Shown here one piece after another: positions 6,811 through 25,421 of a stretch of 29,205 bases of DNA; position 1 is the first letter of the stretch; each line of letters starts with the position of its first letter. Origin of the DNA: a virus; the IMG/VR virus record IMGVR_UViG_3300035698_003843, positions 1 through 29,205 of that record, one strand, 5' to 3'. Both the position numbers and the translations under genes were made by a program. Under the pieces are notes generated by a model. The model did no database searches. It had not been told where the DNA came from and saw only the letters and a list, made by a program, of their open reading frames with translations.

Positions 6811-7325
6811 TGGAGTTAGTACATTTTACAGATAGTCTGGAATTTATACCAGAGTCGTATACGCAACCTAGTGAACACGAAATGAAGCCTAAGGGCTTGT
6901 GGGTTTCGGACGAAGAGGACTACGGCTGGATGGAGTGGTGCCAAGCAGAGCAGTTCGGTAATATAAAAGATAAAACAGCCTACCACATTGAACTAGCGGA
7001 CGACGCAAATATTACGTATCTTAAAAGCGAAGAGGATATACTAAAATTTGGTAAATACTACCAACCAGTAGTAGCCCCTGATAAACAGTGGATGATTAGG
7101 ACGTGTTTGGACTGGGAGCAGGTGGCTAAGGATTACCAAGGAATAATAATAACACCCTACCAATGGGGTAGCCGTATGGACCCTAAAGTAATGTGGTATT
7201 ACGGGTGGGACTGTGCGTCTGGGTGTATATGGGATTTGAAAGCCATAAAGCAGATGAAAGAACGTGAGAATTTTAGCCAACTTAGAATAGAGGACAAGAA
7301 ATGCGAAACAAATCAAGCAAGTTAA
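6810..7325 (+). CDS. Conserved phage protein with WYYGWDCASGCIW signature, 171 aa
   Basis: I recall this pattern from hypothetical proteins in several unrelated phages: an N-terminal VHFT, then KPKGLWVS, GWMEWC, a DW-x-x-VA segment, IIITPYQW, and the C-terminal WYYGWDCASGCIWDL. The order of short motifs (H-F-T, G-L-W-V-S, then I-x-P-Y) loosely recalls the ADP-ribosyltransferase fold of DarT-like or Tpt1-like enzymes, but I cannot align it further and treat this as a hypothesis. It overlaps its neighbours on both sides and lies upstream of the ClpP-like gene. Confidence 0.75.
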   Translation: MELVHFTDSLEFIPESYTQPSEHEMKPKGLWVSDEEDYGWMEWCQAEQFGNIKDKTAYHIELADDANITYLKSEEDILKFGKYYQPVVAPDKQWMIRTCLDWEQVAKDYQGIIITPYQWGSRMDPKVMWYYGWDCASGCIWDLKAIKQMKERENFSQLRIEDKKCETNQAS

Positions 7326-7924
7326 AGGACTACGAGGTAATACCTAATATTAATAAGAGTATGAATTTCTTTAGCGAGAACTTTTATATTCATGGGTGCT
7401 TTGATGCGACAATATCCACGGAGATAATCCCTCAGCTTATAAAAGAAATCGAAGCTAAGAAACTTCTAAAGAAACCCGTTATTAAATTCTACATAAATAG
7501 CGATGGCGGGTACGTTAGATTCCTACAGGATTTATTGGGGTTATTCGATATTGCTAAATCTCATGGTATTATTATTGAAACCTACGTTATGGCTGCTGCA
7601 TATAGTTGTGGCTCCATGCTTGCTTGCGCGGGAACGCCCGGACATAGGTACATAAGTGATTTCGCAGAGCATCTATGCCATTTGGGGTCTACTGGCTCGG
7701 GTACAGTGATTAATGATAATGAAGCGGTAAGGATGCAGGAGCGTATCCAACGTCACTTCGACTTTGTTCGCAGACTGTACAAGAAATATGCTAAGATAAA
7801 AGATTTAGAGAAAGTTATTCACGACGATTGTTATTTCCTATACGGTCAGGAGATTATTGATAATGGTCTAGCCGATAAATTTATAACAGAGCTTGATGAG
7901 GTTAAATCTAATGGCAAAATATAA
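7301..7924 (+). CDS. ClpP-like serine protease, 207 aa
   Basis: The crotonase-like ClpP fold is clear: FYINSDGGYV (oxyanion-forming strand and glycines, residues about 63-72), IIETYVMAAAYSCGSMLACA with the nucleophile Ser102, HLCHLG with His127, and an HDDCYF segment with Asp176 as the third triad residue. The Ser-His and His-Asp spacings (25 and 49) equal those of E. coli ClpP. The IGF loops that dock to Clp ATPases cannot be judged. It lies among accessory genes, far from the head-maturation protease at 24759, and no Clp ATPase is in the window. It may work alone or with host ClpX/ClpA. The 25-base overlap with the previous gene suggests coupling. Confidence 0.88.
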   Translation: MRNKSSKLKDYEVIPNINKSMNFFSENFYIHGCFDATISTEIIPQLIKEIEAKKLLKKPVIKFYINSDGGYVRFLQDLLGLFDIAKSHGIIIETYVMAAAYSCGSMLACAGTPGHRYISDFAEHLCHLGSTGSGTVINDNEAVRMQERIQRHFDFVRRLYKKYAKIKDLEKVIHDDCYFLYGQEIIDNGLADKFITELDEVKSNGKI

Positions 7925-16960: not shown

Positions 16961-19900
16961 ATGACGGACGATTCATGGGTGCTGTATCAAAAAATACTCG
17001 ACGAAATAGAGGACATAACTGACCCACGGCTACAAGCTCAGTGGGCGGACTCCTTGCAAACGTTTGCACGAACTGGGGAAATGGAATACCTGTTTGATGC
17101 GTGTAGCGATACTCGGGAGCTTGTGGACTTAGACACATTCCTCTTCGACCGCTCATACCTGAATCTAGATGAGAGCTACATATATCCGTCCGTTATAGAT
17201 GCCTGTCACGACCTAGACCACGACAATTACACAGAAGCGGTTCTGAAGGGCGCACTTGGTACTGGAAAAAGCTTAGACGTAGACACTCCTATACCCACCC
17301 CTACTAACTGGAAGGCCATGGGGGACCTTGAAAAAGGCGATATAGTGTTCGACGAGAAAGGAATACCCTGCAATGTTACCGAGGCACATCCTGTTCGTTA
17401 TGACCGTAATTGTTATAAAGTAGAATTTTCTGATGGTAACCATATAATAGCAGACGAGGAGCATTTATGGTTTACGCAGGACAAAAATGACCGTAGATGT
17501 GGGCGTGAAGGTCAGGTAAGAGACACCTTAGAGTTATCTAGAACTGTACAATGTGGCAAGGAGCATAATCATTCTATACCTCTAACTGAACCTATTGAGT
17601 GCTCGCATACGCGGTTACCTATAGCACCTTATGTCCTAGGAGCATGGCTGGGTGACGGGTCGTCTAAGGATGCTAAATTTTTCTGCCATGATGATGATAT
17701 ATCCATAGCCAACACAATAAAGGAATTGGGGTACGATATACAAGAGTGCGACTATCCGTCCGTGCGGCAAGAGGGTAGGTGTCCTACCTATTATATATAC
17801 AGTACCCACGATGGTGTAGGTTTCAACGAGGCTCTTACTTCTTTTGGTTTACAGAAAAAGGGAAAATACATACCTAACGATTATCTCCGCGCGTCGGTTG
17901 CCCAGAGGGTAGAGCTGCTACAGGGATTAATGGACACTGATGGTACGGTGTCTAAGCGGGATAAGTGCTGTGAGTTTGTTACCAAGTCGTTAGTGTTAGC
18001 CGAGGATTTCTTAGAGCTTACGACGTCTCTAAGTTTAAAGCCTAAGATTAGCCCAAAGGTGGTTAAAGGACGTACTTACTATAGGATAACCTTCACGGCG
18101 CACAGAGACAGGCTGGAGGCATTTAAACTACCTAGGAAACAGGGATTATGCCCTACAAGCAACAAGTCTACACGTATGCGCTTATCTAGGTATATCACAG
18201 CGGTAACCAAAGTACCTTCTCGCCCCGTAAGGTGCATATCAGTGGACAGCACTAGTAAGCTATACTTAGCGGGCAAGGCTATGGTACCTACACATAATAC
18301 TACCATAGCAAATATTATGCTTGCCCGTAGTATATATAAAATATCCTGTATGCGTGACCCGCAAACCACATTCGGGGTGCAGTCAAAATCATCCCTAGTA
18401 TTTACCATACAGTCGGTGCGCTTCCAGACAGCCAAGAAAGCTGTATTTGAGGAATTCGGTTCATACCTAGGAAACTCACCTTACTTCACTGAGATATGCC
18501 AGTACGACCCTAAAGTGCAAAGCCAGATGATCTTCCGTAAACAGAACCTGCATATTATGCCTGTGTCGTCGTCTAACACTGGTGTTATTTCTATGAACGT
18601 GCTCGGGGGTATTCTGGATGAGATGAACTTCATGCAGAAAATAGAAAACAGTAAAGCGGGTAGTGCCGATGCTTCAGGTGAGTTCGACCAAGCTAAGAAC
18701 TTATATGATACACTAGCCAGACGTAGGAAATCCCGTTTCACCAAAAAAGGTAAGTTGCCGGGAATACTATTCGTTGTGTCATCGTCTAGGTTCCCTGATG
18801 ACTTTACAGAGACTAAAGCAGCAGAGTCTGAGATGTGCGGTGGTAAAGACCCCGGCATATATGTTTACTCACATTCGCAATGGTCTGCAAAGCCGAGAGA
18901 TACATTTTTGGAGGAAGAGTTCAAGGTACTTATCGGTACTGAGAATTTACGTTCCAAAATAATAGAGGAAGGTGACTACGTTCCTGACGATGCTACTGTC
19001 ATAGATGTACCCATGGATTTCTACAATGAATTCGATAAAGATGTTGAGGGTTCCATTCGTGATTTCGCTGGACTTACTTCATTGGCAACCACGCCATTTA
19101 TTACCAAACGTGACTACATATATCAATGTATGAACGCTGCTGAAAATGCGGGGTACTTTAATGCATTTAACGTAGAGGAAATAGACTTGTCCTTGGGCAT
19201 ACCTAAACCAGTCCTTGATCGCCTACGCTTAGATGTCAATGAGCCACGGGCTTGTCATATTGACTTAGGGCTTACGAAGGATGCGTGTGGTATATCTGTA
19301 GGCCATACGGCTGGCTGGAAGCGTGTAGATCGTCGTGACCCTGAGACTAACGTGCTGCATCAAGATTGGATGCCTGTAATAGCCATTGATTTCGTTTTGC
19401 GGGTTGTTCCTCCACCCGGAGAAGAGATTGAGTTCTCCGATGTACGTCAGCTAATAATAGACCTTAGAGATAAATACGGTTTGCCTATAAAATGGGTAAC
19501 CATGGATGGATTCCAATCTGTAGACAGCCGACAAATATTTAAGAAGCAAAAATTCTTGGTGGACTATTTATCTGTGGAGAAAATTGAGCCGTACCGTACG
19601 CTAAGAGATGCGCTATACGATGTTAGGCTTTTGCTGCCAAAAAATACTATCGTAGCTAAGGAATTAGCCGAGCTTGAGCAGACTACTAAAAATAATAAAA
19701 TCAAGGTAGACCATCGCCCTAACTCTTGTTTTGTTGCGGGGACAGAGCTAGTGGTGGAGGGAAACACTTGTGTAGCTATAGAGGATTTGGTAGGCCGACC
19801 CCCCGCTATAGTACCCAGCTATAATCACACAACAAAAGAGTTTGAGTTAGCTACGGCATTAAATGCACACCTAGCAAAGTATACCTCCGATTTAGTTGAT

Positions 19901-20026
19901 ATAGAGTTAGATAATGGCCGCATCATACGATGTACGCCGGACCATAGGTTCCTTCTTGTAGACGGTAATTATAAGCAGGCGCAGTATCTGACAGAAGATG
20001 ATGAACTTATGTCTTTACAAGTGTAG
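16961..20026 (+). CDS. terL: Terminase large subunit, N-terminal piece with intein and split-intein N-half, 1021 aa
   Basis: The precursor holds extein 1 (103 aa), a complete intein, extein 2 (476 aa), and the N-half of a second intein ending at TAG 20024-20026. Joining exteins 1 and 2 restores a Walker A GALGTGKT; Walker B is GGILDEMNF (near 18607). The nuclease domain begins with HIDLGLTKD, and the second acidic residue is in WVTMDGF. The third acidic motif is on the separate gene at 20738. TerL drives DNA into the prohead by ATP hydrolysis and cuts the concatemer. The start at 16961 has no clear ribosome binding site; 16913 is possible. Mature TerL after both splices would be about 658 aa, a normal size. 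Confidence 0.93.
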   Translation: MTDDSWVLYQKILDEIEDITDPRLQAQWADSLQTFARTGEMEYLFDACSDTRELVDLDTFLFDRSYLNLDESYIYPSVIDACHDLDHDNYTEAVLKGALGTGKSLDVDTPIPTPTNWKAMGDLEKGDIVFDEKGIPCNVTEAHPVRYDRNCYKVEFSDGNHIIADEEHLWFTQDKNDRRCGREGQVRDTLELSRTVQCGKEHNHSIPLTEPIECSHTRLPIAPYVLGAWLGDGSSKDAKFFCHDDDISIANTIKELGYDIQECDYPSVRQEGRCPTYYIYSTHDGVGFNEALTSFGLQKKGKYIPNDYLRASVAQRVELLQGLMDTDGTVSKRDKCCEFVTKSLVLAEDFLELTTSLSLKPKISPKVVKGRTYYRITFTAHRDRLEAFKLPRKQGLCPTSNKSTRMRLSRYITAVTKVPSRPVRCISVDSTSKLYLAGKAMVPTHNTTIANIMLARSIYKISCMRDPQTTFGVQSKSSLVFTIQSVRFQTAKKAVFEEFGSYLGNSPYFTEICQYDPKVQSQMIFRKQNLHIMPVSSSNTGVISMNVLGGILDEMNFMQKIENSKAGSADASGEFDQAKNLYDTLARRRKSRFTKKGKLPGILFVVSSSRFPDDFTETKAAESEMCGGKDPGIYVYSHSQWSAKPRDTFLEEEFKVLIGTENLRSKIIEEGDYVPDDATVIDVPMDFYNEFDKDVEGSIRDFAGLTSLATTPFITKRDYIYQCMNAAENAGYFNAFNVEEIDLSLGIPKPVLDRLRLDVNEPRACHIDLGLTKDACGISVGHTAGWKRVDRRDPETNVLHQDWMPVIAIDFVLRVVPPPGEEIEFSDVRQLIIDLRDKYGLPIKWVTMDGFQSVDSRQIFKKQKFLVDYLSVEKIEPYRTLRDALYDVRLLLPKNTIVAKELAELEQTTKNNKIKVDHRPNSCFVAGTELVVEGNTCVAIEDLVGRPPAIVPSYNHTTKEFELATALNAHLAKYTSDLVDIELDNGRIIRCTPDHRFLLVDGNYKQAQYLTEDDELMSLQV
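17055..17068. repeat. Palindrome TGCAAACGTTTGCA, copy 4
   Basis: Exact copy inside extein 1 of the terminase gene, about 95 bases after the start, reading L-Q-T-F-A. Confidence 0.9.
17270..18298 (+). mobile_element. LAGLIDADG intein in the TerL Walker A motif, 343 aa
   Basis: The intein begins at Ser1 (AGC, 17270) after GALGTGK and ends with VPTHN; the +1 residue is Thr (18299). Splice block A is LDVDTPIPTP with MGDLEKGDIVFDE; block B contains ADEEHLW; blocks F and G are CISVDSTSKLYLAG and PTHN. Homing endonuclease motifs are intact: VLGAWLGDG (about intein residues 122-130) and LLQGLMDTDG (about 215-224), both with the catalytic Asp. It interrupts the ATP-binding loop, so terminase is inactive until cis-splicing. 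Ser1 in place of Cys1 is less common but accepted in the family. Confidence 0.93.
19727..20023 (+). mobile_element. Split intein N-half (IntN), 99 aa, in TerL nuclease domain
   Basis: After KVDHRPNS, the intein starts with Cys1 in CFVAGTELVVEG (block A). Block B is RIIRCTPDHRFLLVDG with the conserved T-x-x-H. It then ends at a stop codon with no endonuclease domain and no C-terminal splice block. The missing blocks are on the gene at 20738. A length of about 100 residues is typical for IntN of natural split inteins. Confidence 0.93.
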
Positions 20027-20060
20027 AGCGGTGGTACATACTGGTAGGCAGGAGGTACTT

Positions 20061-20741
20061 ATGCGTAGATTAAAATTATGTGGTGCGGGGTTGGCGTATG
20101 CCTTAGTTGATGACATAGATTATGCCGAGGTATCTAAGTTTAAATGGTATAATAATTCGTGCGGGTATGCCACTACTACTTTTCATAGAAAAGGGTGTTC
20201 TAGGGGGAATAAAAATAGGAATGTTAATATAAATATGGCGAAAGTAATAGCTGACCGTATGGGTATATATACTCCGTCTACCCCTTTCGTAGACCATATA
20301 GATAGGAATCGGCTTAATAATACTAGGGATAATCTAAGGGCAGTCACCGAGCAGGAGAACTCATGGAACACTGCTCGACAGTATAATTCGTTATCAGGTA
20401 TACGTAAACGGCACGGAAAGTACGAAGTAAGATTGGCTAAAATACGGTACGGTACCTACAGTACCATAGAGTTAGCTCGATTAGTGTACGACAGGGTATC
20501 TTATCATACCAGGGGGAGGTTCGCTTGCTTATACCACCCAGACAGGATGGGGGAGTTACCCTTAGATTTTCCTATAATAAACTTTAATAGCCAGCCCCGT
20601 GTTGCTAGTAAACAATCTAGTATTACGGGGGTAACTTGGTACGCTTCTAGGAGTAGATGGCGTTTAATAATTAAAAATAAGACATTAGGTTATTTCCTAA
20701 CGGAAGAGGAAGCTATTAAATTTAAAGAGAGCATAGTATGA
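20061..20741 (+). CDS. Free-standing HNH endonuclease with AP2-like repeats, between intein halves, 226 aa
   Basis: AGGAGG 7 bases upstream sets the start at 20061. A strand-rich start (YAEVSKFKWYNNSCGYATT) leads to the HNH_3-type core FVDHIDRNRLNNTRDNLRAV with EQENSWN. Two AP2-like DNA-binding segments follow: SGIRKRHGKYEVRLAKIRYG and SSITGVTWYASRSRWRLIIK. It lies exactly between the two halves of the split intein and stops in an ATGA overlap with the IntC gene, so the halves and endonuclease move as one unit. This is the fractured-gene layout known from environmental phage genes, where a free endonuclease separates split-intein genes. Confidence 0.9.
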   Translation: MRRLKLCGAGLAYALVDDIDYAEVSKFKWYNNSCGYATTTFHRKGCSRGNKNRNVNINMAKVIADRMGIYTPSTPFVDHIDRNRLNNTRDNLRAVTEQENSWNTARQYNSLSGIRKRHGKYEVRLAKIRYGTYSTIELARLVYDRVSYHTRGRFACLYHPDRMGELPLDFPIINFNSQPRVASKQSSITGVTWYASRSRWRLIIKNKTLGYFLTEEEAIKFKESIV

Positions 20742-20851
20742 GAGTTGTGTCAGTCACCCACATTAAGTTGGATAGCCCTGTGCCTGTCTATGATATAACA
20801 GTACCGGGTAATGAAAATTTCCAGTTAGCCGCAGGGCCTTTTGTGCATAAT
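20738..20851 (+). mobile_element. Split intein C-half (IntC), 38 aa
   Basis: Block F is VYDITVPGNENFQLAAG and block G FVHN, followed by Ser+1 (TCA, 20852). The penultimate His and terminal Asn needed for cyclisation are present. A length of under 40 residues, starting with its own Met, is typical for IntC of natural split inteins of the gp41-1 kind. Confidence 0.93.
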
Positions 20852-21091
20852 TCAAAGGATTGCGCGGATGCAGTTTGCGGGGTAGTGGCATTTCTTATGA
20901 CTAGGCGTTCGTCTTGGGATGGTATGGAATATAACCACGATGATGAGAGTCCACTCAAACTTATAGGTGATAAGAACATAGCGGATAGTATTAGCCGACA
21001 TGAAAGAGAACGTGGCTCAGATGTCGGGTATTACGCTCGCCCCGGAGTTACTAGGAAGGCTTCACATCGACGTACCATAAAGCGCAAATAA
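20738..21091 (+). CDS. terL: Terminase large subunit, C-terminal piece with IntC, 117 aa
   Basis: The first 38 residues are the C-half of a split intein; the remaining 79 begin SKDCADAVCGVVAFLM, the last catalytic motif of the TerL nuclease (KD-x-x-DA, usually just after HPxxGS). Joined to the 16961 product it gives HRPNS-SKDCADA without a gap. The end is basic (SHRRTIKRK), suiting DNA or portal contact. Translation seems coupled to the endonuclease stop. On its own this piece cannot act; trans-splicing must supply the nuclease's third acidic residue. Confidence 0.93.
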   Translation: MRVVSVTHIKLDSPVPVYDITVPGNENFQLAAGPFVHNSKDCADAVCGVVAFLMTRRSSWDGMEYNHDDESPLKLIGDKNIADSISRHERERGSDVGYYARPGVTRKASHRRTIKRK

Positions 21092-21152: not shown

Positions 21153-21998
21153 ATGCTACGAATAAAGAAACAACATCTAACATTAAAATTAACGCCTACC
21201 CCGTGGCTACCTGCTGACACTAAAGATCATGCACATGGCAAGTACGGGCACGGCATGGACGAGAGTGCGGTGTACACGTTCTACGCATGGTTCGTGCAGG
21301 AATACCCTACCAACTTTGTCACAAAGTATGAATTAGCGGAACGTCTGGATGTTCATCGCTGTGTAATAGACGAATGGTTCATGGCCTTAACTTATGAGGG
21401 GCTACTTAACGAAAAAAGCCTCACTAACAAACGGGGTGCTTTGTACGGGTTCGCCCCAAATACTAAACGCAGCTTTGTAGCGAAGAACATCACTGATAAA
21501 ATTGTAAAAATAAAGCCCTGCTCTTCCTACGACCCATGGGTAGACCGTAGCTTCGACAAATCGTCGTACAGTTGCTGGACTCCTTATTTCCTAGACGAAG
21601 TTATTGATAAATATTACTGCGTATACACCGATGAGGTATTCGTACTGACAGGCAGTAGGAGAGTAAAGGAAGGGAAAGTATTCCACCATCTAATTAATGA
21701 CAGGAGCGACAATGACCACCCCATCAACTTCAAAGATTCGTTTAAGAAAAAAACCAAGCAAAAAAACGGATGCCCCCGACCGCCCAGCATTGCGCGTAAG
21801 GACGAAATTGAAAAAAGCTGCTTCACTGAAGGGAGCCAAATCAGAAAGCGTGGAGAAAAAGCCCGATCTTTATCCTCATGGTTACCGTCCAAATACTTCT
21901 GTGCTATTGAGACAGAACGAGGAGAGGTTTCTGGCGATACTGAAATCAAACAAAAAACTAGCAAAGAAATACTGCGAAAAAGGAAAAGAAGAATTTAG
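21153..21998 (+). CDS. Winged-helix-like protein, possibly read past its natural end, 281 aa
   Basis: First gene after the 21094 promoter. The N-terminus is basic (LRIKKQHLTLKL). Residues about 30-95 resemble a winged helix (VYTFYAWFVQEYPTNFVTKY, ELAERLDVHRCVIDEW, ALTYEGLLN). About residues 1-180 look like a real protein. The last 100, from 21697 on, overlap the next gene on the same strand and have poor, polar composition. A TAA lies in another frame at about 21691-21696, so a single indel may have removed the original stop. The ribosome binding site is weak (CGGGTG). Confidence 0.68.
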   Translation: MLRIKKQHLTLKLTPTPWLPADTKDHAHGKYGHGMDESAVYTFYAWFVQEYPTNFVTKYELAERLDVHRCVIDEWFMALTYEGLLNEKSLTNKRGALYGFAPNTKRSFVAKNITDKIVKIKPCSSYDPWVDRSFDKSSYSCWTPYFLDEVIDKYYCVYTDEVFVLTGSRRVKEGKVFHHLINDRSDNDHPINFKDSFKKKTKQKNGCPRPPSIARKDEIEKSCFTEGSQIRKRGEKARSLSSWLPSKYFCAIETERGEVSGDTEIKQKTSKEILRKRKRRI

Positions 21999-22560
21999 CC
22001 CTAGGCAGAAATCCCTTAGAACTTGTGCAGTAAAAATATTAAGTTTCTGCAAATATCTGGATTTACAACAAGAGCTACCTCTTATGGGGCGTTCCCCTAG
22101 ACTAATAGCCGACACATACAAAATGGCCTCCGTTGGTTACTACCATATTCCGGGTATGCACATACTAGGTGATTTCGCTTACGATAAAATACAAAGATGG
22201 ATGCACGCCAATGTAGCCTACCTGAGGCATCACGATATTATACCTGCGGTGATACCTAGGTACCAGATAAATTTGGCGACTGGGGTAGATGTACGATTGA
22301 ACTCCGCTGCTGACTGGGATATTTTGTACCATCTGCATGAGTTGAGCGATAGCGGGGATAAAGATGCCGATTCCTTAGGGGTTATAGCCACGGGCAGGGA
22401 AAGATTCTTTACACATAATGATAAAGACCTAGCTAGGGCCATAGCGAATAAGAAGCAAGGCCGGATAGATGCCAAAAAATCAATAGAGGCTAACCGTCAA
22501 ATATGCATTGCTGAAGGAAAGATCAAACCACTTAAATTAAGAAAGCGGGGTAAAAAATGA
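21712..22560 (+). CDS. Hypothetical phage protein with basic N-terminus, 282 aa
   Basis: AGGAG at 21703-21707 favours the ATG at 21712 over 21697. The N-terminus is highly basic (IRLRKKPSKK), like several proteins of this phage. The central part (about residues 65-200) is a mix of helices with aromatic residues (VGYYHIPGMHILGDFAYDKI), and the end is again basic (LKLRKRGKK). No family recognised. It overlaps the previous gene by 287 bases and couples to the XRE gene through ATGA at 22557. Confidence 0.7.
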   Translation: MTTPSTSKIRLRKKPSKKTDAPDRPALRVRTKLKKAASLKGAKSESVEKKPDLYPHGYRPNTSVLLRQNEERFLAILKSNKKLAKKYCEKGKEEFSPRQKSLRTCAVKILSFCKYLDLQQELPLMGRSPRLIADTYKMASVGYYHIPGMHILGDFAYDKIQRWMHANVAYLRHHDIIPAVIPRYQINLATGVDVRLNSAADWDILYHLHELSDSGDKDADSLGVIATGRERFFTHNDKDLARAIANKKQGRIDAKKSIEANRQICIAEGKIKPLKLRKRGKK

Positions 22561-24758: not shown

Positions 24759-25421
24759 ATGGCATCACTAAATGACATCGTTAGCAAAGGAGTGGCTACC
24801 CGTCCTGAAGACGTGGCAGCATTAGCTTTTTCTGTGAAGAAACGCGAAGCCGGAATCACGGCATCGGTAAATATAAAGAAAGTTAACAGCGAAAAGAAAA
24901 TAGTTTACGGGGAAGTATACGCTCCTGAGATTATCGACGCACATGGACATACCATGAACGCTGAAGAGGTTGAGAAAATGGCTCACCGCTTTCTAATAGA
25001 AAAGAAAACCGACAGTATTGACATCATGCATAACAACAAACCTGCTCTAGCGAGTGCGGTGGAATCCTTTATAGCACGGGACGGTGACGCAGAATTCACT
25101 CCGGGGTCTTGGGTTGTTGCTACGAAGATTTTCGACGATGAACTGTGGGAAGAAATAAAGAGTGGAAAGTATAACGGGTACTCCATGGAAGTGATGGTGG
25201 AGAAGCATTCCGAAATCATAAAGATGCAAATCGAGAATCATGTTTTTGGTATCACTGAAGAAAATGATGGACATGACCATATTTTTTATGTACAAGTTAA
25301 TGATGAAGGTACAGTTGTTAAAGGATATACATCTGAAGATGACGGCCATAAGCATGAAATAGGTATGGGAACTGCTACTGAATCTTCCGTCAAACATAAA
25401 CACAGGTATTTTTTACCATGA
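24759..25421 (+). CDS. XkdF-like prohead protease with His-rich tail, 220 aa
   Basis: The sequence IVYGEVYAPEIIDAHGHTMN, IDIMHNNKPA (His91), FTPGSWVVATKI and IKSGKYNGYSMEV (Ser142) follows the XkdF/S78-like phage serine protease pattern, with His and Ser as likely catalytic residues. Such enzymes trim scaffold and capsid proteins during head maturation. After about residue 165 a separate segment has three His-x-His pairs (GHDH, GHKH, KHKH) with a repeated DGH-x-H frame, not part of the protease core. AAGGA precedes the ATG. Its stop overlaps the next start as ATGA. Confidence 0.85.
   Translation: MASLNDIVSKGVATRPEDVAALAFSVKKREAGITASVNIKKVNSEKKIVYGEVYAPEIIDAHGHTMNAEEVEKMAHRFLIEKKTDSIDIMHNNKPALASAVESFIARDGDAEFTPGSWVVATKIFDDELWEEIKSGKYNGYSMEVMVEKHSEIIKMQIENHVFGITEENDGHDHIFYVQVNDEGTVVKGYTSEDDGHKHEIGMGTATESSVKHKHRYFLP

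Follow-up and report, generated by a model that had tools for sequence, protein, structure and literature searches.

We analysed the gene for the large terminase (TerL) in the virus record IMGVR_UViG_3300035698_003843, the whole stretch of which (29,205 bases, positions 1 to 29,205) is referred to here as the window. Within this one record TerL is spread over two genes, 16961–20026 and 20738–21091. It is interrupted at the Walker A motif by one intein (intein 1) and at the nuclease motif by a different, split intein (intein 2), with a free HNH endonuclease gene in the gap between the halves. All parts of this arrangement, which an initial annotation of the DNA had proposed, were found in their places. 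We consider it very probable that TerL is here a fractured gene, that its product needs trans-splicing and that the gap acts as a homing slot.

Anatomy of the interrupted terminase

The three exteins were joined in silico and gave a TerL of 658 amino acids (aa), in agreement with the length of about 658 aa in the initial annotation. This virtual product aligns unbroken across both junctions with TerL of relatives L006 to L021, which are 48–64% identical and have both sites empty. The corresponding junctions in L006 (64% identical) are KGALGTGK/TTIANVML and RVDHRSGG/SKDCSDAV (a slash marks the insertion site), with no intein at either. Since the spliced product aligns unbroken with many uninterrupted relatives, both intein sites are confirmed. 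It also matches the annotated TerL of RcTiptonus, JP1, Summit and others. A search of the window's own record with the PF03354 profile gave no match, so the TerL identity rests on the relatives; a nucleotide search with the terminase region against named phages gave no match either. The spliced product has a Walker A ATPase and an RNase H-like nuclease with SKDxxD.

The boundaries of intein 1 are GALGTGK/SLDVDT...VPTHN/TTIAN. As first annotated, it is 343 aa long and contains both LAGLIDADG motifs, LGAWLGDGS and LQGLMDTDG (Pfam LAGLIDADG_3, E 1.9e-7). Its class 3 residues are Cys48, Asp62, His65, Trp67, Cys322, Thr341, His342 and Asn343, in which the WCT triplet of class 3 inteins (Trp in block B, Cys in block F, Thr in block G) and DxxH are present. 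Asp62, His65, Trp67, Cys322 and Thr341 are invariant across 15 intein 1 sequences, and the first residue is Ser in the window and Ala in most relatives. The best match in the PDB is 6bs8, the class 3 DnaB intein of M. smegmatis (E 1.7e-24). An AlphaFold model (predicted local distance difference test, pLDDT, 92.7) matches PI-SceI over its full length, and its splicing domain matches the same M. smegmatis class 3 DnaB intein. Intein 1 is thus predicted to be a class 3 intein with Cys322 as internal nucleophile. Because of the class 3 signature, Ser1 is not expected to be the nucleophile. Rhodobacter phage RcTiptonus and Gordonia phage Gmala1 each carry a homologue in the matching position and have an empty nuclease site. 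Inteins of this type are frequent: 763 named phage records contain a relative. Published TerL inteins of this kind both splice and cut (PMC5050341).

Intein 2 begins directly after HRPNS (HRPNS/CFVAGT...; Pfam Intein_splicing, 3.5e-10; TIGR01445, 4e-7), and its C-terminal half ends in FVHN followed by SKDCADA (NCBIfam TIGR01443, 5.8e-6). The nuclease site, the stop of the N-terminal half and the start of the second gene lie where the initial annotation put them, and Pfam, NCBIfam and PHROGs agree with it on the identity of every part of the locus. Cys1, TxxH in block B, block F, the terminal HN and Ser+1 are all present on two separate genes, and the break falls at the position usually occupied by the endonuclease of inteins. 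From these residues intein 2 is a split class 1 intein for which trans-splicing is predicted.

The protein encoded in the gap matches HNH_3 (PF13392, 1.1e-8) and phrog_99 (3.7e-27). Its gene most likely starts at the ATG at 20061, behind AGGAGG, rather than at 19998, and its stop overlaps the ATG of the C gene (ATGA at 20738). We aligned the protein with four relatives; it is 51% identical to the product of the gene at the equivalent place in L053. Used as a query, it had Bacillus phage Stahl as sole match among named phages and found nothing in IMG/VR, and relatives were therefore reached through the C-terminal half and the SKD motif. A single host gene thus has a free endonuclease gene lodged between the halves of its split intein, which supports the initial interpretation as a fractured gene. 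The features are collected in Table 1.

Table 1. Features of the terminase locus in the window
Feature	Coordinates	Strand	Evidence
TerL extein 1, 103 aa; last motif Walker A GALGTGK; ATG of the N gene at 16961	16961..17269	+	Alignment across the junction with uninterrupted TerL of relatives
Intein 1, 343 aa, predicted class 3, with nested LAGLIDADG endonuclease	17270..18298	+	Pfam, conserved residues, AlphaFold model
TerL extein 2, 476 aa; remaining ATPase and most of the nuclease domain, terminal HRPNS	18299..19726	+	Alignment to relatives
Intein 2, N-terminal half, 99 aa; Cys1, block B TPDH; stop at 20024-20026	19727..20023	+	Pfam, NCBIfam
AGGAGG, Shine-Dalgarno-like, for the HNH gene	20051..20056	+	Sequence
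Free-standing HNH_3 endonuclease with AP2-like C-terminal part, 226 aa	20061..20741	+	Pfam, PHROGs, relative in L053
Intein 2, C-terminal half, 38 aa (VYD...FVHN); start of its own gene	20738..20851	+	TIGR01443, alignment
TerL extein 3, 79 aa; nuclease motif SKDCADA through the C-terminus, stop included	20852..21091	+	Alignment to relatives

In the proposed pathway two polypeptides would be made. The N-precursor would comprise the ATPase together with the larger part of the nuclease; it would enclose intein 1 and end in the N-terminal half of intein 2. The C-precursor would begin with the C-terminal half of intein 2, followed by the final 79 aa of TerL. Intein 1 would be excised in cis through the class 3 reaction, probably initiated by Cys322. 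The halves of intein 2 would associate and ligate the exteins in trans through class 1 chemistry (Cys1, His, Asn, Ser+1), yielding the 658-aa TerL. The HNH protein would serve as a homing endonuclease, spreading into TerL copies that lack an interruption, and the LAGLIDADG domain may play the same role for intein 1. The anatomy, the catalytic residues, the insertion sites and the recurrence of the arrangement are directly observed; we infer both the splicing, from established intein chemistry, and homing by either nuclease. Given that the splicing residues of both inteins are intact and the exteins conserved, cis-splicing of intein 1 and trans-splicing of intein 2 would be the only economical path to a complete TerL.

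Three points weigh against this interpretation. Splicing and cleavage are here predictions from sequence. The window is a 29-kb metagenome fragment, from which viability of the phage does not follow. A near-identical genome with an empty TerL site was not found, and homing is therefore not directly visible; the DNA around the empty site in the closest three relatives has 33–37 of 50 bases identical, which is too low for a cut site to be inferred.

Portal and head genes lie downstream of TerL, and the neighbours (portal, protease, ParB) are consistent with a normal packaging module. Directly behind TerL are two overlapping frames, 21153–21998 and 21697–22560, without a family match in Pfam or PHROGs. 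The genes at 7301–7924 and 24759–25421, both within the 29 kb, are related to proteases of head maturation or of ClpP type.

The nuclease-motif site in relatives

Relatives were searched with the C-terminal half plus SKD and with the N-terminal half, and at most 80 loci per search were chosen by motif; the counts are therefore lower bounds and biased to SKD. At least 55 distinct inteins occupy the HN/SKD site, 42 of them contiguous, 11 scored as split and two without an N-terminal half nearby. One of the 11 (L143), scored as split by the script, has the appearance of a contiguous HNH intein disrupted by a frameshift, leaving about 10 that are truly split. All 10 of the long contiguous inteins scanned have an in-frame HNH_3 domain, and the other contiguous ones are mini-inteins. 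One of these, L031, has a Hint-domain fold (pLDDT 94.8; Foldseek E 4.5e-11 to an Ssp DnaB intein). In a rough tree, the bootstrap of which is not settled, the split inteins cluster (three changes, a number as low being reached in 0 of 500 shuffles).

What fills the gap differs among the split inteins. HNH genes of the window's family are found in L053, L054, L131 and, broken, in L056, and L061 has a decayed HNH remnant; the database search suggested initially, for the same split site with an HNH_3/AP2 gene between the halves, thus has a positive outcome. The gap is filled by another HNH family (phrog_3377) in L055 and by a TnsA-like nuclease in L098, and holds nothing in L083. On one 100,142-bp IMG/VR record (L057 and L210) a 5.7-kb stretch containing other genes separates the halves; TerL of this record also appears to carry a P-loop intein.

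Streptococcus phage vB_SagM-GXN1 (PQ819873.1; L047 and L211) resembles the window in having a split intein at the identical site (HPPNS/SKD) with a nuclease between the halves. It differs in that the nuclease is of DUF559 type and fused to the N-terminal half, and in that a second split intein lies at Walker B with its halves about 60 kb apart. TerL of this phage appears in three genes (61190–62143, 122565–125180 and 125164–125535), and none of this is annotated in the record.

Several further observations concern inteins at this or related sites. The C-terminal half and TerL tail of L115 are near-identical to those of L023, and no N-terminal half was found on its 138-kb record. A bacterial metagenome-assembled genome contig (L212) has the contiguous version only. 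The DNA polymerase gene of Rhodobacter phage RcKickapoo (L051) holds an intein related to intein 2. In L038, L040, L041 and L035 an intein splits NrdA-type reductase genes; L038 and L040 have an HNH-like homing gene in the gap, L041 shows equal spacing, and L035 has no such gene.

Alternatives to invasion and trans-splicing

The free HNH gene could derive from a contiguous HNH intein in this position whose endonuclease domain became detached, with no separate invader. The HNH_3 domain of the contiguous siblings, which sits at the same place, is consistent with such detachment. However, by similarity the free HNH proteins group apart from the nested ones, with only marginal matches of about 50 aa between the two groups, and mini-intein L031 falls among the split inteins in the rough tree. 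The separation of the two groups tentatively favours a separate HNH gene having invaded a mini-intein, and we regard detachment as unlikely.

Even less likely is that the inteins are switches that would keep ATPase and nuclease inactive until a signal such as a redox change allows splicing to be completed, and so time packaging. Both inteins interrupt catalytic motifs, and the same idea, here drawn by analogy, has been published for Microcystis phage Mic1 (PMC7156551). Intein 1 has both Cys48 and the class 3 Cys, and in M. smegmatis DnaBi1 the equivalent of Cys48 is the redox partner of the class 3 Cys, the pair forming a disulfide (PMC6195587). Cys48, however, is replaced by Ser or Met in close relatives carrying the intein, and mycobacteriophage TerL inteins spliced readily in the reporter tested (PMC5050341). 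Moreover, most close relatives are without both inteins, so such regulation is not needed for packaging.

An RNA-level explanation, in which the gap (20024–20737) is a group I or other intron harbouring the HNH gene and its removal from the RNA makes intein 2 contiguous, is scarcely credible. Phage introns commonly carry HNH genes, TerL of ICP1 is spliced at the RNA level (PMC10448857), and the N and C parts lie in the same frame; but the gap region has no Rfam match at the gathering or a relaxed threshold, and outside reading frames the gap offers just 34 nucleotides, all ahead of the HNH gene, too little to accommodate an intron core. The split also falls at the usual intein endonuclease position, where the gap of relatives contains different nucleases or is almost absent.

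An assembly error or a decayed terminase, to which the single metagenome contig and the broken HNH copies of L056 and L061 might point, is extremely improbable: the same split site with intact extein and intein residues recurs in about 10 divergent, independent contigs and in the isolate GXN1, which rules out the assembly error named initially as a possible refutation, and the C genes of split relatives have starts of their own, overlapping or just behind the preceding frame.

Known systems and significance

In the fractured genes originally described, the endonucleases are reportedly Vsr-like, and the interrupted genes are replication or nucleotide genes, whereas in the window an HNH/AP2-like gene lies in TerL. 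The layout is the same, with split intein halves around a free endonuclease gene (Dassa et al. 2009, as cited in PMC6892783). PolB of Pseudomonas phage MIJ3 also has a split intein with an HNH gene between the halves (PMC6892783), but its host gene is not TerL and no second intein is described there. AceL NrdHF, for which splicing was demonstrated, shares the fractured layout with an endonuclease between the halves and an N-terminal half of 98 aa (PMC7891396); it differs in its class 3 intein, its GIY-YIG nuclease and its host gene nrdHF. AceL-TerL, GOS-TerL and Cat-TerL (reviewed in PMC11766414) are likewise naturally split inteins, named after TerL; their N-terminal halves measure 25–37 aa and +1 is Cys, whereas in the window +1 is Ser and the split is at the usual site.

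Mic1 TerL (MN013189) has two inteins, one in the ATPase and one in the nuclease domain, with a proposal of packaging control (PMC7156551). Unlike in the window, both are contiguous, and the insertion sites differ (...DHL/C...SN/CDALRY, close to SKD without coinciding with it). M. smegmatis DnaB combines, in one ATPase, a class 3 P-loop intein (DnaBi1) with a class 1 intein elsewhere (DnaBi2) (PMC6195587); there both are contiguous and DnaBi1 has no endonuclease, in contrast to intein 1. The rarity initially claimed for two homing systems in one gene does not hold, given Mic1 with one intein per TerL domain (PMC7156551), a crAss-like TerL with two (PMC7886860) and the recurrence of the nuclease site; the TerL reading frame of L032 (1–5869) has four inteins (P-loop, Walker B, mid and SKD site). 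As far as the compared literature goes, and leaving the original fractured-gene paper aside, what is new is the split form of the nuclease-motif site with HNH/AP2-like genes, how widely it occurs, and that nucleases replace one another in its gap.

There is about an even chance that TerL of these phages is a lineage in which one old split intein has been kept at the nuclease motif while unrelated endonucleases (HNH/AP2-like, other HNH family, DUF559-type, TnsA-like) alternate in the gap and get lost, until the halves finally move far apart and packaging can no longer do without trans-splicing. In phages of this kind the C-terminal nuclease motif of TerL can escape gene callers, and about ten new natural split pairs become available for protein ligation. 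The relatives offer a graded set of states of one fixed protein site: vacant, occupied by a contiguous intein with nested HNH or by a mini-intein, and occupied by a split intein whose gap has an intact HNH gene, a broken HNH gene or nothing, or whose halves are kilobases apart. The origin and fixation of split inteins are therefore directly testable at this site.
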